In this document: one piece after another, positions 4,284-15,868 of the stretch
How the letters are laid out: each line of letters begins with the position of its first letter
How positions within the stretch are numbered: position 1 is the stretch's first letter
NCBI GenBank assembly: GCA_023259135.1
Contig: JAHFQX010000003.1
Span: 1 to 35,246, forward strand
Direction of reading: 5' to 3'
Origin: Betaproteobacteria bacterium
Lineage (GTDB): Bacteria > Pseudomonadota > Gammaproteobacteria > Burkholderiales > JAHFQX01
DNA: 35,246 bases
The notes under the pieces: generated by a model
What the model saw: only the letters and a program-made list of their open reading frames with translations
Database searches by the model: none
What the model was told of the DNA's origin: nothing
Position numbers and translations under genes: made by a program

Positions 4284-4742
4284 TTGGTTTCCTTTAACCA
4301 TTTGCTTGTTTTTGCGCTGGATGACGTCCGCTATGCGCTGCTGCTGGCCAGCGTCGAGCGGGTGGTTCGCGCCGTGGAAATCACGCCCCTCCCGGACGCT
4401 CCGGACATTATCCTGGGGGTGATTAACGTCCAAGGTCGAATAGTGCCGGTGGCCGACATCCGCAAGCGCTTTCGGCTGCCCGCGCGGGGAATCGCCCTCA
4501 GCGACCAAATCGTCATCGCCCATATCCCCAGTCGCCCCTTCGCGCTCGTGGCGGATACGGTTTACGGCATTGTGGAATGCCCCGAGCGGGAGATCATCGC
4601 CTCGGAGCGGATTCTCCCCGGCCTGGAATATGTGGAGGGCATCGTAAAAATCGACAGTGGCATGATTCTCATCCACGATCTGGACAAGTTCCTCGCCCTG
4701 GATGAAGAAAAATCCCTGGAACAGGTAATGAAAAATGCCTGA
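4284..4742 (+). CDS. CheW-like coupling protein (WspB position)
   Basis: This 152-residue single-domain CheW protein should bridge the chemoreceptor and the histidine kinase in a cytoplasmic signalling array. CheW features are visible: [32 protein letters not shown], then [19 protein letters not shown]. No ATG exists in frame near the N-terminus; the TTG at 4284 is chosen because a GGAGGGGG ribosome site lies about 4-10 bp before it. The ATG at 4270 is in another frame. The gene opens the operon and its stop overlaps the next start by 8 bp, a sign of coupled translation. In gene order it matches wspB. The rare TTG start and structured leader suggest that expression may be limited at translation, which is inference. 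Confidence 0.88.
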
Positions 4743-6159
4743 GGCCAATGCCCGAATGGTTCTGCAAGATTCGCTTTTGTCCCGCCTGAGCGAGGCTCTT
4801 GCCGCCCAGATGGGCCTGCACTTTCCGAAAGAGCGCTGGCGCGATCTGGAGCGCGGGATTGCCGCCGCCGCCCGCGACTTCCATCTCCCGGATGCGGAAG
4901 CGTGCGCGCGCTGGCTCCTATCCGCGGCGCCGGCGCGAGATCAGATCGAGGTTCTCGCCAGCCACCTGACCGTGGGGGAAACCTATTTCTTCCGCGAGCC
5001 GCGGAGCTTCGAGATCCTTGAGCAGCAGATCCTGCCGGAACTCATCCGTTCCCGCCGCGATGGGGAACGGCGCCTGCGGATCTGGAGCGCCGGCTGCGCA
5101 ACGGGCGAGGAGCCCTATTCCATCGCCATGCTCCTCGACCGGCTGATCCCCGATCCCGGGGAATGGAACGTCACCCTTCTGGCGACCGACATCAACCCGC
5201 GTTTCCTCGGAAAGGCGGCGGAGGGCGCGTACGGCGCATGGTCGTTCCGCGGCACGCCGGACTGGATCCGGGAGCGGTATTTCAAGACGCGGCGGGATGG
5301 GCGCTTCGAGCTGGACCCGCGCATCAGAAAGCGCGTGACGTTTTCCTATCTCAATCTCGCCGAAGACGCCTATCCGTCGCTCGCCGGGAACACCAACGCG
5401 ATGGACGTGATTCTGTGCCGCAACGTGCTGATGTATTTCGCCGCGGAGCGCGCCGCGAAGGTCGCCGACGGCCTGCACCGCTGCCTTCTCGACGGCGGGT
5501 GGCTGATCGTCGGTCCGGCAGAAACTTCCCATACGCTGTTTTCCCGGTTCGCCACCGTCAATTTCCCCGGCGTGGTTCTGTATCGCAAGACGGCGCATGC
5601 CGGACCGCGGCCGGTCTTCGGGCAGCGGGTTTTGCCGCGCCAGGAGCCGTCGCCGCAGGCAGGCGTTGCGTCGCCGGAGCCCCTCGTCCAGAACCTCCCC
5701 ATCCCGCGGGAGCCGCCGCGCGAGACGATCCGCGCGGAGGAGCCGGGATTGGACGGCAGGGCGCGGAGTTGCGCCAACGAAGGCCGGCTCGCGGAGGCGG
5801 CTAAGTGGTGCGAGCAGGCGATCGCCGCCGACAAGCTGAACCCGGCGCGCCATTATCTTCTCGCCAACATCCGGCGCGAGCAGGGGCAAAACGACGCGGC
5901 GGCGCAATCGCTCCAGCACGCGCTCTACCTCGATCCGGATTTCGTGCTCGCGCATTTCGCGCTGGGCAATCTTCGCCTGTCGCAAGGCCGGCGCCGGGAG
6001 GCGGAGCGGCATTTCGAAAATGCGCAGGCGCTGCTGCGCTCGCGCCCGCAGGACGAGATCCTCCCGGAAGCGGAGGGGCTGACCGCCGGCCGGCTCGGCG
6101 AGATCATCGCCTCTGTGCGCTCGATCCTGCCGCGCGCGAATAAGGAGCAGCCGGCATGA
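4735..6159 (+). CDS. CheR-type MCP methyltransferase with C-terminal TPR repeats (WspC-like)
   Basis: This 474-residue protein should methylate glutamates on the partner receptor using S-adenosylmethionine, setting the adaptation level. The CheR N-terminal helical region ends in HLTVGETYFFRE; the SAM-binding motif WSAGCATGEEPYSIAM starts at residue 117; LLATDIN and DVILCRNVLMYF complete the methyltransferase core, ending about residue 285. A proline-rich linker leads to two or more TPR units (about residues 335-450; ARHYLLANIRREQGQND, AHFALGNLRLSQGR). CheR with TPR repeats is the architecture of WspC. The receptor lacks a C-terminal CheR-docking pentapeptide, which fits a TPR-based docking mode. 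The gene overlaps cheW upstream by 8 bp and the next gene by 4 bp (ATGA). Confidence 0.92.
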   Translation: MPEANARMVLQDSLLSRLSEALAAQMGLHFPKERWRDLERGIAAAARDFHLPDAEACARWLLSAAPARDQIEVLASHLTVGETYFFREPRSFEILEQQILPELIRSRRDGERRLRIWSAGCATGEEPYSIAMLLDRLIPDPGEWNVTLLATDINPRFLGKAAEGAYGAWSFRGTPDWIRERYFKTRRDGRFELDPRIRKRVTFSYLNLAEDAYPSLAGNTNAMDVILCRNVLMYFAAERAAKVADGLHRCLLDGGWLIVGPAETSHTLFSRFATVNFPGVVLYRKTAHAGPRPVFGQRVLPRQEPSPQAGVASPEPLVQNLPIPREPPRETIRAEEPGLDGRARSCANEGRLAEAAKWCEQAIAADKLNPARHYLLANIRREQGQNDAAAQSLQHALYLDPDFVLAHFALGNLRLSQGRRREAERHFENAQALLRSRPQDEILPEAEGLTAGRLGEIIASVRSILPRANKEQPA

Positions 6160-6782
6160 ACGCCAACGAGTCAAGCTCGCGCGCGGCCGTGGATTGGCGC
6201 GAGGTCGAGCGGCGCATGGAGGCCGCCCGCGCCGCCGTCGAGCGCGTCTGGGCGCCGGCTCCCGAGGAAAGCAAACGCATCCTCAAGGCAAGGGCCCGGG
6301 CGCTCGCCCGGCAGCCCGAGCAGGCGGAGGCCGCCGGCGAGTACCTCGAAGTCGTCGAGTTCGTCCTGGCCTACGAGAACTACGCCGTCGAGACCCGTTA
6401 CGTGCGCGAGGTGTATCCGCTGGAAAACCTGACGCCGCTGCCGTCCACGCCGGCCTTCGTGCTGGGCGTCGTCAACCTGCGCGGCGAGATCCTCTCGGTC
6501 CTCGACCTCAAGAAATTCTTCGAGCTGCCGGAGAGGGGACTCACTGATCTCAACAAGGTCATCGTCCTGGAATCCGGCGGCATGCTCTTCGGCATCCTCG
6601 CCGACGCCGTCGTGGGCGTGCGCCACGTTGCGGCGGCCGGAATCCAGCCGTCGCTGCCCACGCTCACCGGCGTGCGCGAGGCGTATCTCAAGGGCGTGAG
6701 CGCGGAGCGCACGGTGATCCTCGACGCGGGAAAGCTCCTGGCGGACGAAAAAATCATCGTCCGGGAACGGGTGGAAGGATAG
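6156..6782 (+). CDS. CheW-like coupling protein with N-terminal extension (WspD-like)
   Basis: A second CheW protein of 208 residues. The CheW domain occupies roughly residues 65-205 (VEFVLAYENYAVETRYVREV, FVLGVVNLRGEILSVLDLKKFF, VIVLESGGMLFGILADAVVGV). It is preceded by about 60 residues of charged helix with ERVWAPAPEESKRILKARARALA, the extension expected in WspD and in CheW proteins paired with CheR-TPR. Its ATG overlaps the cheR stop as ATGA. Two different CheW proteins on either side of a CheR-TPR gene is the Wsp order, which suggests that this array uses both in one complex. Residues that distinguish its receptor and kinase contacts cannot be judged without a structure. Confidence 0.9.
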   Translation: MNANESSSRAAVDWREVERRMEAARAAVERVWAPAPEESKRILKARARALARQPEQAEAAGEYLEVVEFVLAYENYAVETRYVREVYPLENLTPLPSTPAFVLGVVNLRGEILSVLDLKKFFELPERGLTDLNKVIVLESGGMLFGILADAVVGVRHVAAAGIQPSLPTLTGVREAYLKGVSAERTVILDAGKLLADEKIIVRERVEG

Positions 6783-6820
6783 GGAATCACTGAGCGAATT
6801 CGGCGGAACGGAGAACGGCC

Positions 6821-8458
6821 ATGAAATGGTTCCTCGATTTGACCACGCGCGGCAAGCTGTTCGCCGCTTTTGGGCTGATGATCGCCCTCCTGGCGACAAC
6901 GATCGCGAGCGCTTACCTCGGGATCGCGGCGATCCGGGAGTCGCAAAAAAACCTCTACGAGAAAGACTTCGCCAATGCCCTGGATCTGATGACCCTTCGC
7001 GCCGAGCAGAACGGAGTGCGGGCCGCGTTGCTCAGCATGATGGCGGTTACGCGGCAGTCCGAGCGGGATATCTGGCGTCAGGAGGTCAATCAGCGCAGCC
7101 AGGAAATCGCCGAAACCATGCAACGATTGCTGGAGCGCAACCGTAATGAACCGCGACTCTCCGCCCGGATCGAAGAGCTGAAGACGGTGGGCCGGGCGTT
7201 CGCGCAGACGCGCGATGCCGAAGTTATCCCGCTGATCCATGCGGGCAAGACGGAGGAAGCCAGGACGCTGGTGCTCGGCATCCAGGAAGAACGCTACGGC
7301 AAGATGCGCGCCATCGCCCAGGATCTGGGCGAGACGGCGGTGGAACGGGCCCGCGCCGCCGTGGAGGAATCCGAATTAAAGACGGCGCAAACGATGTTCC
7401 TATTCATCGCCCTCGGCATCGTGGCCGTGCTGCTGGCGGTGGCGCTGGTGCTGCTGCTTTCCCGGATCATCGCCGCGCCGCTCAGGACGATCTCCGGCAT
7501 CGCCGGACAAGTGGCCGCGGGCGATCTCACCGTGAACGCTCCGCAGGACGATCGCGCCGACGAGGTGGGCGATCTTGCGCGTGCGTTCCGCGCGATGATC
7601 GAGAATCTGCGGCGCACGACGCGCGAGATCAACGAGAGCGTCGGCGTGCTCGCCTCTTCGTCCTCCGAGATCCTCGCCACCACCACGCAGGTGGCTTCGG
7701 GGGCGGCGGAGACGGCGACCGCGGTAAGCGAGACCACCGCCACGGTGGAGGAAGTGAAGCAGACGGCGCAGGTCTCGAGCCAGAAGGCGAAATACGTGTC
7801 CGAGAGCGCGCAGAAGGCGGCACAGGTCTCGCACTCGGGCAAAAAGGCGGTCGAGGACGCGACCCAGGGCATGCACCGCATCCAGGAGCAGATGGAGGCG
7901 ATCGCCGGGAGCATCGTGCGGCTCTCCGAGCAGAGCCAGGCGATCGGGGAGATCATCGCCACCGTCAACGACCTGGCGGAGCAATCTAACCTCCTGGCGG
8001 TCAACGCCGCGATCGAGGCGGCGCGGGCGGGCGAGCAGGGCAAGGGCTTCGCGGTGGTGGCGCAGGAGGTAAAAAGCCTCGCCGAGCAGTCCAGGCAGGC
8101 GACCGCTCAGGTGCGCGCGATCCTCACCGACATCCAGAAAGCGACCAGCACCGCAGTGCTCGCCACCGAGCAGGGAACCAAGGCGGTGGAGGCCGGAGTG
8201 AAGCAGTCGGCCGAGGCGGGCGAATCCATCCGGCTGCTCGCCGAAGGCATCGCGGAGGCGGCGCAGGCGGCGACCCAGATCGCCGCTTCCAGCCAGCAGC
8301 AGATGGCGGGCATGGACCAGGTGGCCCTCGCCATGGAGAACATCAAGCAGGCCAGCAGCCAGAACGTCGCCGGCACCCAACAGGCGGAGGCCGCAGCGCA
8401 GCAACTGCACGAGTTGGGACAGAAACTGAGCGCCCTGATCGGGGGCAAGGCCGCCTGA
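6821..8458 (+). CDS. Transmembrane methyl-accepting chemoreceptor (WspA position)
   Basis: A 545-residue inner-membrane receptor. TM1 spans about residues 11-34 and TM2 about 191-214, enclosing a roughly 155-residue periplasmic four-helix-bundle type sensor, helical and without recognisable ligand motifs. A HAMP domain follows (about 215-268; [20 protein letters not shown]), then the MCP coiled coil. The signalling hairpin tip is canonical ([30 protein letters not shown]; about residues 387-425). The C-terminus ([10 protein letters not shown]) lacks the NWETF-like pentapeptide for CheR docking. GAGAACGG lies just before the ATG. In Wsp the receptor gene comes first in the operon; here it is fourth. 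The stimulus is unknown; surface contact is the Wsp precedent. Confidence 0.94.
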
Positions 8459-8467
8459 GCCGGGGTG

Positions 8468-8568
8468 CTGTAGGGCGGGCTATGCCCGCCGGATCAAGCC
8501 TGCCCTGAGCCCTTCGATAAACTCAGGACAGGCTTGTCGAAGGGATGTCGGGCGCAGCCCGACCTACG
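8468..8568. repeat. REP/BIME-like nested palindromic repeat
   Basis: The 154-bp gap between mcp and cheA is almost entirely nested inverted repeats. Left unit: GGCGGGC-TAT-GCCCGCC at 8474-8490. Right unit: GTCGGGC-GCA-GCCCGAC at 8547-8563. An outer GTAGG (8470-8474) pairs with CCTAC (8563-8567). Between them an AAGCCTG..CCTGAG arm (8496-8509) pairs with 8522-8535 (13 of 14), and the loop CCCTTCGA (8510-8517) is complementary to TCGAAGGG (8537-8544). Two REP-like units facing each other around a core is a BIME layout. Sequences of this look are common intergenic repeats in GC-rich proteobacteria. It lies inside an otherwise tight operon and may fold in the mRNA and change the mcp to cheA ratio. 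Confidence 0.8.
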
Positions 8569-8612
8569 GATGGTTTTACCTTTGAAATGGAAATGGAATA
8601 ACTCGAAGAACC

Positions 8613-10883
8613 GTGGCCAGGAAGAACGACGAACTGCTGAAAAGACTCCTCGCGACCTTTCGCGTCGAGGCGGACGAGCATCTCCAGGCGATGTCGTCGG
8701 GACTGCTCGCGCTGGAGAAAATGCCGCAGGGAGAAGAACGGGCGGCGCTCATCGAGAAGGTCTTCCGGGAAGCGCACAGCCTGAAGGGCGCGGCGCGGGC
8801 CGTGAACCTCGGGGAGATCGAGGCGATCTGCCAGTCGCTGGAAAGCGTGTTCGCCGGGCTGAAGGGCGCGCGGATCGCCGTCTCGCCGCCGCTGTTCGAT
8901 CTCTTGCACCAGGCGCTCAACGCTCTCGGCGGCTTGCTTGCCGCGGACGCCGCCGCGCCTGGGGCTCGCCCGCCGGCGATCGGGCCGCTGACCCGGCGGC
9001 TCGATGAGGCGTCCCAAGGGATGCCGCCCAAACCCGAAGCGCGCGCCGAATCTGCGGTGGCCGCTGACGTGCATCTCCCGCCTCCGGCGCCTGGCCTGGC
9101 GTCTGGGACGGTCAGGGTCTCCACCGCGAAACTCGACGCGGTGATGCGGCAGACCGAGGAGTTGCTGTTGCCGCGGCTGGCGGCTGGCCAGCGCGCCGGC
9201 GATCTGCGCGAGACCGCGGCCGCGCTTGCCGCCTGGAAGAAACAGCGGGCGCGGATTCAACCGGCGCTGCGGCTGATCGAACAAGCGCTCGGGCGAAGCG
9301 GCGCGGCGAACCGCGCCGCCGGGGCGCAGCACGAGTTCGCGAAGCTGCTCGAATATCTGGATGAGGAAGACCTGTTCCTGAAAACCCTCGAAGGCCGGCT
9401 GGCGCGGCTCACAAAGTCCGCCGAGCGCGATTGGCGCATGCTATCCGGTATGACCGGCAGCCTGCTGGAAGAGGTGAAAGAGATGCACCTGCTGCCGTTC
9501 GCTTCGGCGATCGAAATTTTTCCGCGCTTCGTGCGCGATCTTGCGCGCGATCGGGGCAAGGAGGTGGAGCTACTCGTTCAGGGAGGCGAGATCGAAATTG
9601 ACCGGCGAATCCTGGAAGAGTTGAAAGACCCGCTCATCCATCTGCTCAGGAACTGCATTGATCACGGCATCGAGGCGCCGGCGGCGCGCGGGGAAAAGCG
9701 CAAGCCGGCACACGGAACGATCGCGCTTTCGATCTCGCAGCGGGACGGCGGCAAGGTCGAGATTCTCGTCGCCGACGACGGCGCGGGCATTGACGCGGCC
9801 AGGGTGAAAGCGGCGGCCCTCAAGCTCGACTTGGTTTCCGCCGAGGAGGCGGAGCGGCTCGGCGAAGCGGAGGCGCTGGCGCTCGTGTTCCGGTCCGGCG
9901 TTTCCACCAGCCCCATCATCACCGATGTCTCCGGGCGCGGGCTCGGACTCGCGATCGTGCGGGAAAAGATCGAGCGGCTGGGCGGCACGGTCGCGATCGA
10001 GTCGCACCCCGATACGGGAACGCGCTTTCGGATCGTCCTGCCGCTGACGCTCGCCACCTTCCGCGGCGTGCTGGTGCGCGCCGGCGGGCAGCTTTTTGTC
10101 ATTCCGGCGGCGAGCATCGTCCGAGCGGCGCGGGTGGCCGCAGGGGACATCCGGACGGTGGAAAACCGGGAAACGATCACGCTCGGCGGGCAGGCGGTTG
10201 CGCTGGCCGGCTTGGACGATGTGCTGGAGCTGCCGCGCAACGGAGCGACGGGAGAATCGGCGGGCCATGCGCAGGCGCTCGTACTCGGCCTGGGCACAGA
10301 GCGCATCGCGTTCCGGGTGGACGAGGTTCTCGGGGAGCAGGAGGTGCTGGTCAAGACGCTGGGTCCGCAGCTCGCGCGCGTGCGCAACGTCACCGGCGCG
10401 TGCGTGCTCGGGACCGGCCAGGTAGCGCCGGTGCTCAATGCGGCCGATCTCATGAAATCGGCCGTGAAACGGGCGGCGCCGCCGCTCGCCCCCGCCGTGG
10501 AAGAGCCCGCCGGAGCGCAGCAACGCGCCATTCTGGTGGTGGAGGACTCGATTACCTCGCGGGCGTTGCTCAAGGGGATACTCGAATCCGCCGGCTACCG
10601 GGTCGTCACCGCGGTGGACGGCAGCGATGCCTACACCGCGCTCAAGACCGAAACCTTCGATCTGGTGGTCTCCGACGTGGAGATGCCGCGCATGGACGGG
10701 TTCGACCTCACCGCGAAGATACGCGCCGACAAGAGCCTGTCGGAATTGCCGGTGGTGCTGGTCACGGCGCTGGAATCGCGCGAGCATCGCGAGCGCGGCA
10801 TTGACGCCGGCGCCAATGCCTACATCGTGAAAAGCAGCTTCGATCAGAGTAATTTGCTGGAGGTGGTTCGGAGGCTGATTTAG
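8613..10883 (+). CDS. Hybrid chemotaxis histidine kinase CheA-REC (WspE-like)
   Basis: A 756-residue cytoplasmic kinase that phosphorylates itself and then response regulators under receptor control. The HPt domain (1-110) carries phospho-acceptor His55 in AHSLKGAAR. No clear P2 domain follows. The dimerisation/ATPase part has the N box LRNCIDHG (Asn347), G1 box DDGAGID (388-394) and G2 box GRGLGLA (441 on). A CheW-like P5 domain spans about 475-610, and a C-terminal REC domain about 632-756 with acceptor Asp688 (VVSDVEMPRMDG) and VKSSFD. A fused receiver is the hallmark of WspE. The start is GTG 8613, giving MARKND; the ATGs just upstream are stopped at once by TAA. The fused receiver may compete with the downstream regulators for phosphate, as a sink (inference). 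Confidence 0.94.
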   Translation: MARKNDELLKRLLATFRVEADEHLQAMSSGLLALEKMPQGEERAALIEKVFREAHSLKGAARAVNLGEIEAICQSLESVFAGLKGARIAVSPPLFDLLHQALNALGGLLAADAAAPGARPPAIGPLTRRLDEASQGMPPKPEARAESAVAADVHLPPPAPGLASGTVRVSTAKLDAVMRQTEELLLPRLAAGQRAGDLRETAAALAAWKKQRARIQPALRLIEQALGRSGAANRAAGAQHEFAKLLEYLDEEDLFLKTLEGRLARLTKSAERDWRMLSGMTGSLLEEVKEMHLLPFASAIEIFPRFVRDLARDRGKEVELLVQGGEIEIDRRILEELKDPLIHLLRNCIDHGIEAPAARGEKRKPAHGTIALSISQRDGGKVEILVADDGAGIDAARVKAAALKLDLVSAEEAERLGEAEALALVFRSGVSTSPIITDVSGRGLGLAIVREKIERLGGTVAIESHPDTGTRFRIVLPLTLATFRGVLVRAGGQLFVIPAASIVRAARVAAGDIRTVENRETITLGGQAVALAGLDDVLELPRNGATGESAGHAQALVLGLGTERIAFRVDEVLGEQEVLVKTLGPQLARVRNVTGACVLGTGQVAPVLNAADLMKSAVKRAAPPLAPAVEEPAGAQQRAILVVEDSITSRALLKGILESAGYRVVTAVDGSDAYTALKTETFDLVVSDVEMPRMDGFDLTAKIRADKSLSELPVVLVTALESREHRERGIDAGANAYIVKSSFDQSNLLEVVRRLI

Positions 10884-10924
10884 CAAGAAGCAAGAGGCAA
10901 GAGGCAAGAGGCGGGAGGCGGGAA
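10883..10924. repeat. Tandem 7-bp repeats, left border of S23 cassette
   Basis: Six consecutive heptads starting on the last base of the cheA stop: GCAAGAA, three GCAAGAG, GCGGGAG, GCGGGAA. The reverse complement of the same unit (NTCTTGC) fills the other side of the four-helix-bundle gene, so GCAAGAGGC at 10904-10912 is matched by GCCTCTTGC at 11445-11453. The two sets therefore act as inverted borders around the inserted gene. Confidence 0.8.
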
Positions 10925-10954
10925 GAAGAGCGAGCAACAGGGGGGTGCGAGGCA

Positions 10955-11335
10955 ATGATTCAATCGTACAAGGACCTTCAGGTTTTTCGGCTTTCGTATG
11001 AGCTTGCGATGGAGGTGTTCCGGTTGACGAAGAAGTTTCCGAAAGAGGAGTTGTACTCGCTCACCGATCAGGTGCGTCGGTCCTCGCGGTCGGTGACCGC
11101 GAACATCGTCGAGGGCTGGTCCAAGAGGCGTTACGAAAATGTGTTCAAGCGGCACCTGCTCGACGCCATCGGATCGTCCGATGAAACCAAGGTGTGGCTG
11201 GCTTTCGCCGCCGACTGCAAGTACATCACGAGCGATGAACGCCAAACCTTAACGGGGAGATTCGACGAACTCGGCAAGATGCTCCATCGGCTGTTCGAAA
11301 ACTGGAAGACATACGCCGTGGAGAAAGTATCATGA
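10955..11335 (+). CDS. Four-helix-bundle protein of the S23 / 23S rRNA IVP family
   Basis: A 126-residue protein starting IQSYKDLQVFRLSYELAMEVF and continuing FPKEELYSLTDQVRRSSRSVTANIVEG, the signature of the four-helix-bundle family first described as proteins encoded in intervening sequences of 23S rRNA. The family is related to the Avd accessory protein of diversity-generating retroelements. Its biochemical role is unclear; family members form basic pentameric bundles that may bind nucleic acid. GAGG lies just before the ATG. It interrupts the expected cheA-cheB junction and is bordered by inverted 7-bp repeats, which suggests it arrived as a cassette. No 23S rRNA, reverse transcriptase or template/variable repeat pair is present, so neither classic context applies. 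Confidence 0.88.
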   Translation: MIQSYKDLQVFRLSYELAMEVFRLTKKFPKEELYSLTDQVRRSSRSVTANIVEGWSKRRYENVFKRHLLDAIGSSDETKVWLAFAADCKYITSDERQTLTGRFDELGKMLHRLFENWKTYAVEKVS

Positions 11336-11344
11336 TGTGGGAAA

Positions 11345-11466
11345 CCGGAAGCAAGATGCAAGAAGCAAGAAGCAGGACTTGCTTCCCGCGCTCCCGCATC
11401 TTGCTTCCTGCTTCTTGCTTCTTGCATCTTGCTTCCGGCCTCTGGCCTCTTGCATCCTGCTTCCCG
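11345..11466. repeat. 33-bp perfect inverted repeat made of 7-bp units
   Basis: Bases 11345-11377 are the exact reverse complement of 11406-11438, with a 28-base spacer. Both arms are built of heptads (AGAAGCA, AGATGCA on the left; TTCTTGC, ATCTTGC on the right), and degenerate TTGC-type heptads continue to about 11466. In RNA this would be a very stable stem ending about 36 bases before the cheB start. It has no U-run, so termination is not indicated; it could stabilise the upstream mRNA or reduce cheB expression. The repeats also extend the cheB frame upstream by 46 low-complexity codons that are not part of the protein. Confidence 0.85.
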
Positions 11467-11474
11467 GGGAACCC

Positions 11475-12542
11475 ATGATCAAGGTCCTAATAGTGGAAGA
11501 TTCCCTCGTGGTGCGCGAGTTTCTCGTTCACATTCTCGGCGCGGACCCCGAGATCGAAGTCGTCGGCGCGGCGCACGACGGCGAGGGCGCGCTGGAGGCC
11601 GTGCGGCGCTGGCGGCCCGACGTGATCACCATGGACATCCACATGCCCAAAATGGACGGGTTGGAGGCCACGCGCCGGATCATGGAAACCGAGCCGACGC
11701 CCATCGTCGTCGTAAGCGGGAGCACGGACCCTGGGGAGGTGGCGACGACGCTCGATGCGCTGGAGGCGGGCGCGCTGGCGGTGCTGCGCCGCCCGGCGGG
11801 AGTCGGCCATCCGGAGCATGAGGCCACGGCCCGTGAACTGGTGCAGATGGTGAAACTGATGTCGGAAGTCAAGGTGGTGCGGCGCTGGCCGCGGGCGCGG
11901 CGCGGAACTCCGCTCCCACGCCCGACGGAGATGGGCCTTGCGCAGGAGCCGGCGAAAGTCCGGCTCGTGGCCCTCGGCGCCTCGACCGGCGGCCCGCCCG
12001 TGCTCCAGACCATTCTTGCCGCGCTGCCCAAGGATTTTCCGGCGCCGATCGCGATCGTCCAGCACATGGCGGCGGGATTCATCGGCGGGTTCGTCGAGTG
12101 GCTGGCGCACTCTTCCCGCCTGCCCGTGCATCTCGCCACCCACGGCGAATTCATGCTTCCCGGCCACGTCTACGTCGCGCCTGACGAGCGCCAGATGAAG
12201 GTCGAGCGCGGCGGAAGGATCGCCCTGACCGGGGGCGAACCCGAGAACGGACTGCGGCCCTCGGTTTCGTATCTGTTTCGTTCGGTCGCCGAGGTCTACG
12301 GCTGCGACGCCGTCGCCGGCCTGCTCACCGGCATGGGACGCGACGGCGCCGAGGAGTTGCGGCGGCTAAAGGAGAAAGGCGCCGTCACCTTCGCCCAGGA
12401 CAAAGACAGCTCGGTGGTTCACGGCATGCCGGGCGAGGCGATCCGGCTCGACGCGGCGATGCTGGTGCTGCCGCCGGAGAAAATCGCCCCGGTGCTGGCA
12501 AATCTGGCAAACCATAGAGGCAACACGAGGCGCGATCCATGA
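11475..12542 (+). CDS. CheB-type protein-glutamate methylesterase (WspF-like)
   Basis: A 355-residue enzyme that removes methyl groups from the receptor once its receiver is phosphorylated, opposing the CheR. The ATG at 11475 puts MIKVLIVEDS at the start; upstream codons come from repeats. The receiver (about 1-125) has acceptor Asp54 in TMDIHMP. The conserved lysine before proline is replaced: the sequence reads VLRRPAG, with Arg106 in its place. The methylesterase domain (about 162-350) keeps the triad: Ser170 in GASTGGP, His197 in VQHM and Asp290 in GMGRDGA. Its stop overlaps the start of the next gene by 4 bp, linking the output regulator to this array. Loss of WspF in known Wsp systems locks signalling on, so the receiver change is worth noting. 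Confidence 0.93.
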   Translation: MIKVLIVEDSLVVREFLVHILGADPEIEVVGAAHDGEGALEAVRRWRPDVITMDIHMPKMDGLEATRRIMETEPTPIVVVSGSTDPGEVATTLDALEAGALAVLRRPAGVGHPEHEATARELVQMVKLMSEVKVVRRWPRARRGTPLPRPTEMGLAQEPAKVRLVALGASTGGPPVLQTILAALPKDFPAPIAIVQHMAAGFIGGFVEWLAHSSRLPVHLATHGEFMLPGHVYVAPDERQMKVERGGRIALTGGEPENGLRPSVSYLFRSVAEVYGCDAVAGLLTGMGRDGAEELRRLKEKGAVTFAQDKDSSVVHGMPGEAIRLDAAMLVLPPEKIAPVLANLANHRGNTRRDP

Positions 12543-15500
12543 AACCCAAAAAGAATACAAACAGCGGCGTGGAAATCCTCATCGCCGAGGACAGTCCGAC
12601 CCAGGCGGAACAACTGCGCTACCTGCTCGAGGAGCACGGCTTCGCGGTCACGGCCGCGCCCGACGGCAAGCAGGCCCTGGCGGCGGCCCGCCGGCGCAAG
12701 CCGACGCTCGTCATCAGCGACGTCATGATGCCGGAGATGGACGGCTTCGCGTTGTGCCGGGAGATCAAGCGCGACGAGCGGCTCAAGGACATTCCGGTGA
12801 TCCTGCTCACCTCGCTCTCCGACGTGCGGGACATCATGCAGGGCTTGGAGTGCGGCGCCGACAATTTCATCCGCAAGCCGTACGAGGAACGCTACCTGCT
12901 CGCCCGCGTTGATTACCTGCTGATGAACCTGGAGCTGCGCAAAAGCCAGAAGATGCGCATGGGGGTGGAAATCTATCTCGGCGGGCGCAAGCACTTTATC
13001 AGCGCCGAGCAGCAGCAGATCGTGGACCTGCTGATCTCGATCTACGAGGAGGCGATCCACATCAACGAAGAGCTGAAGGAGCGGCAGCGCGAGCTGGCGT
13101 ACTCGAATCGCTCGTTGAGCGGGCTTTACCACGTTGCGGAGGGGCTGAACCGCGCGGTGGGCGAGCGCGAGGTGTGCGAGAAGGCGCTCGAGCACGCGAT
13201 GGAGCTGCCGGGGGTGCAGGCCGGATGGATTTCCCTGTGGGAGCAGGAGAACAACGCTTTCCGGACGGCGGCAGTGCGCAACCTTCCTCCTGCGCTGCTC
13301 CGGGAAGGCGCGATGGAGGGCGAGTGCGAGTGCCGGCGCCGTTTTCTCGCGGGAGAGCTGGACCGCGTCACCAATATCCTGGAGTGCGAGCGGCTGAAAG
13401 GCGCCTCGGGCGACACGCAGGGCCTGCGCTACCACGCCAGCGTGCCGTTGTGGATCGGCGACCGGAGCCTGGGCATTCTGAGCCTGGTGGGAGCCGAGCA
13501 GGGCCTGTTCCAAGACGGCGAGCTGGAAACGCTCTACGGGGTCGGGCACCAGGTGGGCATCGCGCTGGAGCGCGCCCGGCTGCACGAGCGCCTGGAGCAA
13601 CTGGTGGAGCAGCGCACCGCCGCGCTCACCGCCGAGATCGCCGAGCGCAAGAAAGTGGAGGCGGCGCAGGCGCGGCTGGTGGCGATTCTCGACGCGACCA
13701 GCGATTTGGTCGGCATCACCGATTCCCGGGAGAGAATCATCTATCTCAACGCCGGCGGGCGCGGGATGCTGGGGATCGGCCCGGAGGAAGACCTTTCCAT
13801 AAGCACCATTGCCGATTACTGTTCCGCGGAGCAGCGGGATCTCGTCCTCACCAAAGCCATCCCGGCGGCGGTGCGGGACGGGGCGTGGTCCGGGGAGACC
13901 CAGGTGCGCTCCCGCGACGGCCACGATATCCCAGTCTCCCAGGTCATCCTCGCCCACAAGGATGAGAGCGGAAATCTACGCTACCTTTCTACCATCGCCC
14001 GCGACATTACCTTGAGCAAAAAACAAGAGGCGCGGATCATGCGCCTCAACCGCGTGTACCACGTGTTGAGCGGCATCAACGGCACGATCGTGCGCGTGCG
14101 CGACCGGCAGCAGCTTTTCGAGGATGCCTGCCGCATCGTGGTGGAGCACGGCAAGTTCATTTTCGCATGGATCGGCACGCTCGACGCAGGCACGCAACAG
14201 GTTACGCCGGTCGCCAGGGCGGGACACGAGGATGGCTACCTGTCGCGGATCAATCTCAGCGCGCGGGAGGATGCCCCGGGAAGCTGCGTGTTGATCGCGC
14301 GCGCCCTCACCCAGGCGGCGCCGGTGGTGTGCAACGACATCGCCTCGGATGAGCGCACGGAGGGATTGCGCTCCGAAACGCTCGCGCGCGGCTATCGTTC
14401 GGTGGCGGTGTTTCCTTTTATCGTCGAAAGCCAGCCGGTCGGCGTGGGCGTGATTTACGCGTCGGAGCCGGGCGTTTTCGACGAGGAGGAAATGAGGCTG
14501 CTCACCGAACTGGCCGGCGATATTGCGTTCGCGCTGGATCACCTCGAAAAGGAGCAGCGGCTCAATTACCTCGCCTATTTCGACGCCATCACCGGGCTTC
14601 CGAACCAGGCGTTGTTCCTGGAGCGTCTCGACCGGCACCTGGCCGGCGCGCGCAGTGACCGGAAAACATTTTCCGTGATCATGCTCGACCTCGACCGCTT
14701 CGGCGCCATCAACGAAACCCTCGGGCGGCAGGCCGGAGACGAACTGCTGCGCCAGTTCGCCCGGCGCCTGGAGCAGGCGCTCGAGGAAAGCGACGTGGCG
14801 GCGCGTCTCGCCGCCAACCGTTTTGGCATTGTCAGGCGAAGCGTGGACGACAGCACCGAGGTGGCCCATCTCCTCGAGCGGATTCTTCTCGATATCGAGG
14901 CACTGCCGTTCCGGGTGAACGGCAACGAGCTGCGGATCTCGGTCCGGGCCGGAATCGCCCTGTTCCCCGCCGACGGCGCGGATGCCGATGGCCTGTACCG
15001 CAACGCCGAGGCGGCGCTGAAAAAGGCCAAGCTCTCGGGAGACAAGTATCTGTTCTACACCGCCGAGCTCAACGCCCGGGTGGCCGAAAACCTGGCGCTC
15101 GAAAACAAGCTGCACCGGGCGCTGGAGCAGCGGCAACTAGCGCTGCATTACCAGCCGAAAATTGATCTCGGGACGGGACGGATCAGCGGGCTGGAGGCGC
15201 TGATGCGCTGGAACGATCCCGAGGCCGGGCTGGTGCCGCCGGTGAGGTTTATCCCCATCCTCGAGGAAACCGGGCTGATTCTCGAGGCCGGCCGCTGGGC
15301 CATGGAGCAGGCGATCGAGGATTGGGGAAAGTGGCGGGCGAGCGGCCTGCGGCCTCCGCGCGTCGCCGTCAACGTCTCGGCGATCCAACTGCGGCAGAAG
15401 GATTTCGTCGCCACGGTCGAGCGCATGCTGAGCGGCGCGGAAGACACGTCCGGCGCCCTGGAGCTGGAGATCACCGAGAGCCTGATCATGCAGGACATCG

Positions 15501-15868
15501 AAGCAAACATCGCCAGGCTCAAGGCCGTCCGGGACATGGGGGTCGGGGTGGTGATCGACGACTTCGGCACCGGCTATTCCTCGCTTAGCTATATCGCCAG
15601 GCTGCCGATCAACGCGCTGAAGATCGACCGGGCGTTCATCGTCAACATGACGGGCAAGCCGGACGATCTGAGCATCGTCTCCACCATCATCTCCCTGGCG
15701 CATTCCCTGAATCTGAAGGTTGTCGCCGAGGGGGTCGAGACCGAGGAGCAGGCGAAGCTCCTGCGGCTGCTCAAGTGCGACGAAATGCAGGGATACCTGT
15801 TCAGTCCGGCGGTGCCCGCGGAGCAGATCGAGCGCTTCCTGCGGGAGAAGAAATCGCTGCCAGGGTAA
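12539..15868 (+). CDS. Response regulator REC-GAF-PAS-GAF-GGDEF(degenerate)-EAL, probable c-di-GMP phosphodiesterase
   Basis: A 1109-residue cytoplasmic output protein in the place of WspR. Order: REC (about 8-125, Asp61 in ISDVMMPEMDG, lysine in IRKPYEE); coiled linker; GAF (about 195-355) with Cys263, Cys265 and Cys283; PAS (about 380-500); second GAF (about 515-665); GGDEF (about 680-840); EAL (about 855-1100). The GGDEF signature reads AANRF at 758-762 and the RxxD inhibitory position reads EESD, so cyclase activity is not expected. The EAL domain keeps its metal and catalytic residues: E886 in EAL, N945, E977, D1007-D1008, K1028, E1064, Q1084. Predicted reaction: c-di-GMP to pGpG, switched by phosphorylation from the CheA. 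A decayed GGDEF can still bind GTP and activate an EAL in other proteins. Only 4 bp overlap with cheB. Confidence 0.93.
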   Translation: MKPKKNTNSGVEILIAEDSPTQAEQLRYLLEEHGFAVTAAPDGKQALAAARRRKPTLVISDVMMPEMDGFALCREIKRDERLKDIPVILLTSLSDVRDIMQGLECGADNFIRKPYEERYLLARVDYLLMNLELRKSQKMRMGVEIYLGGRKHFISAEQQQIVDLLISIYEEAIHINEELKERQRELAYSNRSLSGLYHVAEGLNRAVGEREVCEKALEHAMELPGVQAGWISLWEQENNAFRTAAVRNLPPALLREGAMEGECECRRRFLAGELDRVTNILECERLKGASGDTQGLRYHASVPLWIGDRSLGILSLVGAEQGLFQDGELETLYGVGHQVGIALERARLHERLEQLVEQRTAALTAEIAERKKVEAAQARLVAILDATSDLVGITDSRERIIYLNAGGRGMLGIGPEEDLSISTIADYCSAEQRDLVLTKAIPAAVRDGAWSGETQVRSRDGHDIPVSQVILAHKDESGNLRYLSTIARDITLSKKQEARIMRLNRVYHVLSGINGTIVRVRDRQQLFEDACRIVVEHGKFIFAWIGTLDAGTQQVTPVARAGHEDGYLSRINLSAREDAPGSCVLIARALTQAAPVVCNDIASDERTEGLRSETLARGYRSVAVFPFIVESQPVGVGVIYASEPGVFDEEEMRLLTELAGDIAFALDHLEKEQRLNYLAYFDAITGLPNQALFLERLDRHLAGARSDRKTFSVIMLDLDRFGAINETLGRQAGDELLRQFARRLEQALEESDVAARLAANRFGIVRRSVDDSTEVAHLLERILLDIEALPFRVNGNELRISVRAGIALFPADGADADGLYRNAEAALKKAKLSGDKYLFYTAELNARVAENLALENKLHRALEQRQLALHYQPKIDLGTGRISGLEALMRWNDPEAGLVPPVRFIPILEETGLILEAGRWAMEQAIEDWGKWRASGLRPPRVAVNVSAIQLRQKDFVATVERMLSGAEDTSGALELEITESLIMQDIEANIARLKAVRDMGVGVVIDDFGTGYSSLSYIARLPINALKIDRAFIVNMTGKPDDLSIVSTIISLAHSLNLKVVAEGVETEEQAKLLRLLKCDEMQGYLFSPAVPAEQIERFLREKKSLPG

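Follow-up and report, generated by a model that had tools for sequence, protein, structure and literature searches.

A window of 35,246 nucleotides from the genome of a Betaproteobacteria bacterium (the window is the whole stretch of DNA that was analysed) contains at positions 4284-15868 a single chemosensory operon, whose genes, according to a Pfam scan, all lie on the + strand. The operon probably encodes a chemosensory array outside the Wsp group whose output is a phosphodiesterase of cyclic diguanylate (c-di-GMP). By its gene content it is a complete operon of the ACF (alternative cellular functions) type that is related to Wsp and, by its CheA sequence, lies outside the Wsp clade. The first-pass annotation had listed CheW, CheR-TPR, an extended CheW, a methyl-accepting chemotaxis protein (MCP), CheA-REC, CheB and a response regulator. 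Pfam agreed for every one of these genes; a gene at 10955-11335 encoding a 23S_rRNA_IVP-family protein (IVP gene) had been omitted.

The output regulator (12539-15868, + strand) comprises 1109 residues, in which Pfam recognised a receiver (REC), two GAF domains, a PAS, a GGDEF and an EAL domain. They are arranged as REC-linker-GAF-PAS-GAF-GGDEF-EAL, a predicted c-di-GMP phosphodiesterase. Its GGDEF signature reads AANRF, in which neither the two glycines nor the two acidic residues of GG[DE]EF are left, and the RxxD site of this domain is not present. The nine EAL positions are all standard (ENEEDDKEQ). Thus, the dead-looking GGDEF and the intact EAL domain noted at first inspection were found as described.

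CheA relatives were sought in 300 sampled genomes of the same order, 173 of which matched at 1e-60, and in named genomes. From the order genomes 34 regions were taken (29 best matches and five chosen for open frames of less than 1000 residues), and the named-genome loci are the best 80 of at least 568 confirmed. The loci L092-L094 (duplicates of L058, L061 and L060) and L128 (a fragment) were left out before counting, and all output counts ignore kinship among the loci. A fused-EAL regulator was present in 36 loci, the window included. Carriers include Sulfuriferula multivorans, Thiobacillus denitrificans, Rhodanobacter, Dyella flava, Simplicispira and Haliea as well as six Nitrosospira and two Nitrosovibrio records. 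GG[DE]EF was missing in all 36 loci, the commonest form being [SN]AD-x-F, and all nine EAL sites were found in 34 of them. L072 is incomplete at the sequence end with 7/7 readable EAL sites intact, and L075 is split over two open reading frames (ORFs), with Ala replacing one EAL Asp. Because of these two counts, the predicted phosphodiesterase-only output is a conserved state, and a lone decayed gene was ruled out.

Among 26 aligned regulators, Q872, E886, R890, N945, E977, D1007, D1008, K1028 and E1064 were invariant, as was Asp 61 of the receiver. By motif matching, Q872, E886, R890, N945, E977, D1007, D1008 and E1064 correspond to Q161, E175, R179, N233, E265, D295, D296 and E352 of RocR, whose catalytic, metal and substrate roles were taken from PMC7911125. 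N725 and D734 of the GGDEF domain, also invariant in the 26 sequences, were equated by motif with N335 and D344 of PleD, which are GTP-binding or specificity residues (PMC7911125, PMC5907407); since they are kept, the degenerate domain may be a guanine-nucleotide-binding regulatory domain. Mean pairwise identity was 0.67 for the EAL domain, 0.67 for REC and 0.69 for the REC-GAF linker, as against 0.51 for GGDEF, 0.54 for each GAF and 0.31 for PAS. Because of these high values relative to GGDEF, the tightest conservation rests on the EAL domain and the receiver, with the active site of the GGDEF domain lost.

In a search of the EAL domain against solved structures we obtained matches to MorA, MucR and DosP, and to RocR (3sy8). 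The predicted structure of the regulator had a mean pLDDT (per-residue confidence) of 81 and a pTM (predicted template modelling score) of 0.40. Its EAL part fitted the EAL domains of MorA and MucR at 1.5-1.8 Å with 41-46% identity, and the model fitted the MorA GGDEF-EAL tandem at 2.9 Å with 40% identity, while the top-ranked fold matches, to DosP, were long yet loose (root mean square deviation 37-41 Å). The fold search also matched LapD GGDEF-EAL structures, more weakly, which would suit a catalytically dead c-di-GMP receptor of the LapD kind. We regard such a receptor as very unlikely, as the EAL positions for catalysis, metal binding and substrate binding have been retained and do not vary among the 26 regulators. 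A bifunctional or chiefly cyclase output has its counterpart in a more distant branch (L078-L080, L083, L084), where REC-GAF-GGDEF-EAL regulators possess intact GGDEF and EAL signatures. With AANRF lacking the glycines and acidic residues of GG[DE]EF, and with a degenerate GGDEF domain in every fused-EAL locus, its probability is close to nil. The combination kept in the kin and the resemblance of the model to solved EAL enzymes corroborated the earlier claim that the output is, as predicted from sequence, a c-di-GMP phosphodiesterase.

We propose that the receptor and the couplers govern the activity of CheA, which would phosphorylate CheB, leading to adaptation, and also the receiver of the regulator. 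The linker helix and the GAF/PAS modules would relay the signal to the EAL domain, which would hydrolyse c-di-GMP, while the degenerate GGDEF domain would make none. An active kinase would most likely raise phosphodiesterase activity and so lower c-di-GMP. We hold this sign to be likely by analogy, because Pch, a GAF-PAS-degenerate GGDEF-EAL protein, needs the CheA phosphorylation site to lower c-di-GMP.

The same system could be controlled in the opposite way, phosphorylation of the receiver inhibiting the phosphodiesterase, so that an active kinase would release a brake and raise c-di-GMP, as Wsp does. The sequence is compatible with either sign, and a net rise on activation would fit the GGDEF or GGDEF-EAL genes which were detected in the cheA-cheB gap of ten related loci (L058, L061, L064, L096, L104, L105, L107, L108, L116, L121; one to three each, 13 in all). 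Ten of these genes, from nine loci, were scanned with Pfam, L092 and L093 standing for L058 and L061; six encode HAMP-GGDEF proteins, one gave a Cache match below the cut-off, and three encode PAS-GGDEF or PAS-GGDEF-EAL proteins. Their signatures are GGDEF, GGEEF, GGEEI, GGDEI and once GGDDF; 12 of the 13 agree with GG[DE]E[FI], five strictly with GG[DE]EF, and six show the odd GGEEI. Nevertheless we think that brake release is rather unlikely, given that the CheA phosphorylation site is required for Pch activity and that the cheA-cheB gap of the window harbors the IVP gene in place of a GGDEF gene. Lowering of c-di-GMP by the active kinase thus remained our preferred sign.

The first-pass annotation had called the operon Wsp-like. 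Six same-order clusters begin with the MCP; five have a REC-GGDEF regulator 3′ of cheB, and in L091 cheB was not separated from another frame. The one MCP-first output tested had 3bre as its best solved relative (446 bits), followed by entries named WspR. Careful trees were built from 45 hand-picked rows for CheA and 39 hand-picked rows, five of them Wsp, for CheB. In the CheA tree the six MCP-first clusters and L192 formed a Wsp clade of seven rows (support 100/100) with the window placed elsewhere; L192 had been fetched as an outgroup and was relabelled Wsp once the first tree placed it within Wsp. Joining the window to Wsp by constraint was rejected for CheA by the approximately unbiased (AU) test (p-AU 0.0045), an outcome of the kind that the first-pass annotation had named as a refutation. 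The CheB phylogeny, also suggested beforehand, gave a divided answer: its free tree separated Wsp from the window at 100, but the forced union returned a p-AU of 0.128, together with a long-branch warning from the program. Wsp membership was therefore rejected on CheA.

The receiver argues most clearly against Wsp membership. It showed 27-31% identity to four WspR receivers, the fifth giving no alignment over the length limit, and the linker was matched in none of the five WspR regulators. Moreover, the wspA-wspF synteny with the MCP first is absent from the window operon, as is a WspR (REC-GGDEF) or WspH output. The fourth position of the receptor, correctly reported by the first-pass annotation, is common to the relatives, since CheW-CheR-CheW-MCP precedes cheA in 62 of the 70 loci having at least four upstream matches. 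The eight exceptions are two Wsp loci, three loci without the first CheW in the available sequence (L058, L104, L156) and three with an interposed REC gene (L077, L081, L082). A true Wsp system in which an EAL regulator had replaced WspR would account for the gene content and for the CheA-REC and CheR-TPR composition, which equal those of Wsp, and the CheB test leaves it unrejected. The separate CheA clade, the receiver, the linker and the different MCP position make it highly improbable, and CheA and the receiver together largely refute it. For these two reasons the label of an opposite-sign Wsp, given to the operon on first inspection, is an analogy: its phosphodiesterase part stood, its Wsp part failed on CheA and the receiver. 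The cluster combines a CheR-TPR with a multidomain response regulator, the features named for ACF systems in PMC3447774, and the genome gave no match to FliMN.

By contrast with the WspR receivers, those of fused-EAL, histidine-kinase, REC-GGDEF (L152) and intact REC-GAF-GGDEF-EAL clusters (L078-L080, L083, L084) were 43-84% identical to the window receiver, and the linker of 79 residues was matched in 81 of the 85 regulators of these classes, the window included. As receiver and linker are common to clusters of different outputs, they seem to constitute one conserved unit with exchangeable outputs, and the array resembles a sensor that can be reused. Output classes (D/E/H/I/G/U) were assigned manually; hand decisions placed L075, L117, L134 and L170 in D and selected the L135 regulator. 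Outside the Pfam-scanned loci, kinase domains were detected with two self-made query segments, and four of the 38 'H' loci (L130, L136, L163, L165) have no kinase in the first regulator.

A quick CheA tree (LG+G4) of 117 rows, i.e., 110 loci, the window and six outgroup rows, placed the window in a firm set of 37 rows (support 97) with 24 fused-EAL, seven kinase-plus-EAL, three kinase-only and three unclassified rows. The enclosing branch of 47 rows, with a support of 82 not firm, contained 30 fused-EAL, eight kinase-plus-EAL, four kinase-only and five unclassified rows. Its sister branch of 42 rows consisted of 34 rows of the kinase class, six unclassified, one REC-GGDEF and one fused-EAL row (L170), and five fused-EAL rows (L067, L070, L072, L073, L075) diverged before both branches. 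In the eight kinase-plus-EAL loci (L099, L106, L107, L110, L113, L116, L119, L135) a REC-(GAF)-histidine kinase-REC regulator is followed by an EAL gene. HisKA, HATPase and Hpt were verified by Pfam in all three of these regulators that were scanned, and REC plus EAL in 7/7 scanned EAL genes; in L116, whose EAL gene was unscanned, another kinase ORF lies between the regulator and the EAL gene. Since both fused-EAL loci and loci with a kinase and a subsequent EAL gene were found, the phosphodiesterase output, as predicted, recurs in two wirings. Of the kinase-only rows in the 47-row branch, L097 and L102 end shortly after the regulator, and the available sequence of the Dyella loci L122 and L126 gave no EAL matches. 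A GGDEF-EAL gene lies only a few genes further on in three kinase loci of the sister branch (L133, L138, L167). The GAF-GGDEF-EAL protein of L167 (5565-8210, Collimonas silvisoli) is degenerate in both signatures (EAL sites DNEEDNKKQ, GGNTF) and is possibly a c-di-GMP receptor without catalysis.

The source genome (2.58 Mb, 86 contigs, 99% complete) is the sole member of its family among the genomes compared. Searches disclosed one MCP, one CheB and, at a cut-off of 1e-60, one CheA, all of them in the window operon, as well as two adjacent PilT/PilU-family ATPases. A role in flagellar chemotaxis was ruled out by the absence of a FliMN match, and the single MCP, CheB and CheA also make a spare flagellar system unlikely. 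Given the PilT/PilU-family ATPases, and with neither FliMN nor a further MCP or CheB among the matches, the output probably acts on attachment, matrix or the behaviour of pili instead of on swimming. The genome also gave 14 GGDEF and 14 EAL matches, some of the latter being pieces of one gene.

A broader interpretation joins these data. The array would belong to a widespread class that has a single orthologous receiver-linker adaptor as its base and has repeatedly exchanged the output of this adaptor, and a mainly beta- and gammaproteobacterial branch would have converged on c-di-GMP degradation by two wirings, a REC-GAF-GGDEF*-EAL fusion (the asterisk marking the degenerate domain) and a kinase-Hpt-REC-EAL relay. 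The ten loci with gap GGDEF genes would be push-pull controllers, and in the window genome the only array found would act beside pilus retraction ATPases with no flagellar sign. We give this interpretation an even chance of being right.

Several points weigh against the proposed system. Besides the unrejected CheB constraint, the sign of REC control is not fixed by sequence, and the REC domain of CheA itself could act as a phosphate sink. The AANRF signature of the window has decayed further than the [SN]AD-x-F that is common among its relatives, and because of the pTM value the domain arrangement in the model is unusable, although single domains can be used. The c-di-GMP receptors of the cell are not obvious, as the genome gave no PilZ match despite its GGDEF and EAL matches. 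The GGDEF-EAL genes in the three kinase loci of the sister branch disturb a clean split of outputs. Finally, the IVP insertion and the strong predicted hairpin described below could cause cheB and the regulator to be expressed at a lower level.

The operon starts with a CheW coupling protein (4284-4742, +; Pfam 5e-27), followed by a CheR methyltransferase with fused TPR repeats (4735-6159, +; CheR 1.4e-49) and a second, long CheW (6156-6782, +) with an N-terminal extension of about 60 residues, its Pfam domain spanning residues 66-198. The membrane chemoreceptor (6821-8458, +) has the Pfam architecture 4HB_MCP_1-HAMP-MCPsignal. The gap between this gene and cheA (8459-8612) contains the stretch GATAAACTCAGGACAGGCTTGTCGAAGGG, which resembles a repeat but is not dispersed in this genome, since no other copies were found there with up to three mismatches. 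The CheA-REC hybrid kinase (8613-10883, +), identified by Pfam and by the trees, comprises Hpt, HATPase, CheW and REC domains with the Hpt motif HSLKG (His 55) and the REC Asp 688. CheB (11475-12542, +) contains REC and methylesterase domains according to Pfam; its ORF opens at 11337 and has an in-frame ATG at 11475. Its stop overlaps the regulator start by 4 bases, in agreement with the translational coupling claimed beforehand. In 30 of the 33 fused-EAL loci measured, this gap, counted from first possible start codons, ranged from -23 to +15 bases, the others being -128, -104 and +86. Chance assembly of the operon was ruled out by the gene order and coupling kept in the relatives. A scan with NCBIfam, for which the best 25 models per protein were considered, gave above cut-off two CheB subfamilies, a GGDEF domain model and TIGR02436 (the IVP protein) among the matches listed. 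Likewise among the matches listed, no model was met for the whole regulator, the best being phosphodiesterase DibA with 457.5 bits against a cut-off of 980.

The IVP gene in the cheA-cheB gap (10955-11335, +; Pfam 7.3e-32) encodes a four-helix-bundle protein and is the only family member found in the genome. It is flanked by heptamer-like repeats in inverted orientation (10883-11467). GCAAGAA/GCAAGAG copies at 10883-10925 begin at the cheA stop codon, and inverted copies lie between the IVP gene and cheB at 11348-11467, where a strong RNA hairpin is predicted. The region 10883-11467 folds strongly as RNA (z -5.5, 20 shuffles), and all seven genomic matches of a 20-base repeat form, with one mismatch allowed, lie around the IVP gene. 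The cheA-cheB junction is occupied by IVP genes in four further loci as well (L144, L153, L165, L168), whose records are assigned to four different phyla. Short tandem-like repeats were seen by eye beside 7/7 inspected IVP genes (the loci contain eight, the one of L168 being left out). The repeat unit varies among loci; the window and the second L153 copy, whose protein is the closest to the window IVP (209 bits), have similar units, and so do the first L153 copy and L159. Intervening sequences of rRNA are excised by RNase III, and the IVP gene with its repeats recalls such elements, though within messenger RNA. The gene was probably inserted into the operon, and its protein probably plays no part in signalling. 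An anti-phage role of the protein was rejected because PADLOC gave no match, and a literature search on IVP genes and repeats contained nothing recognised as relevant among the matches listed.

Three records, titled Klebsiella pneumoniae metagenome-assembled genome (MAG) and methane-archaeal MAGs (L118, L130, L132), carry family members and are possibly mislabelled or contaminant contigs; L118 was placed among fused-EAL rows in the 117-row tree. In L129 (13404-22650, a MAG labelled Gammaproteobacteria), a REC-GAF-PAS and a REC-GAF-GGDEF-EAL regulator directly follow the fused-EAL regulator and are perhaps fed by the same CheA. On plasmids, only relatives below 45% identity were detected among the best 40 of 258 matches.

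With Wsp of Pseudomonas the operon shares an MCP with 4HB_MCP_1, also the sensor domain of WspA (PMC8846402), two CheW, CheR-TPR, CheA-REC, CheB and a multidomain c-di-GMP response regulator. It differs in the clade of its CheA, in the fourth instead of first position of the MCP, in a receiver unlike WspR and in EAL instead of GGDEF catalysis; the outputs of the 794 wsp clusters of Kessler 2021 were only WspR or WspH (PMC8552884). Chemosensory cluster 2 of Halomonas (PMC5907407) likewise combines CheA-REC and CheR-TPR with a c-di-GMP enzyme, but there the output is a cyclase with receiver domains and GGDEF, and the gene order is another. Cyclases are also the link between chemosensory arrays and c-di-GMP in the accessible text of a review (PMC8846402). 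CheA-REC is found as well in the CheA/Y clusters of Geobacter, whose nearest counterparts were said to be M. xanthus Frz, P. aeruginosa cluster 3 and R. centenum cluster 3, and which were compared to Frz, Wsp and Che3 of R. centenum (PMC2577667). Geobacteraceae also carry the present class (L149, L158); we compared these clusters by description, our trees containing no FrzE. Regulators of the Roc/Pvr type, REC-EAL proteins, are driven by a two-component sensor kinase and not by a chemosensory array. They resemble the present output as EAL enzymes under phosphorelay control, which would also be the arrangement of the eight loci with a kinase and an EAL gene.

The first-pass annotation knew of no named system with this output. 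This holds for the receiver-fused EAL output as far as the passages and search results consulted extend, but a census of 2012 had recorded, in CheR-TPR clusters, one response regulator with EAL and two with GGDEF plus EAL, PAS or GAF being present in some (PMC3447774), and control of Pch by CheA had been published (PMC3861689). In its accessible part, the census reports no clade, no conservation of a degenerate GGDEF, no shared receiver and no relay wiring. Beyond these counts, no chemosensory operon whose EAL output is fused to a receiver was reported among the matches listed in our literature searches, which covered the beginnings of abstracts. Thus, in the searchable literature so covered, there are earlier counts of the architecture but no description of it as a class. 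Outputs exchanged on a single receiver show a route by which chemosensory arrays may be rewired, and with the receiver-fused phosphodiesterase it can be asked, in a genetically clean manner, whether the adaptation of a chemosensory array can drive c-di-GMP down.

The most similar enzyme is Pch/DipA (PA5017) of P. aeruginosa, for which the CheA phosphorylation site is needed to reach low c-di-GMP (PMC3861689). Both are phosphodiesterases, predicted in our case, with GAF, PAS, degenerate GGDEF and EAL domains, and Pch is placed and activated by the chemotaxis kinase. Pch has no receiver and works with the flagellar array, whereas the window enzyme has a fused receiver and belongs to the only array found in its genome. 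For Pch, a receiver adaptor of undefined identity was suggested (PMC3861689); the window regulator would be the covalent version of such an adaptor.

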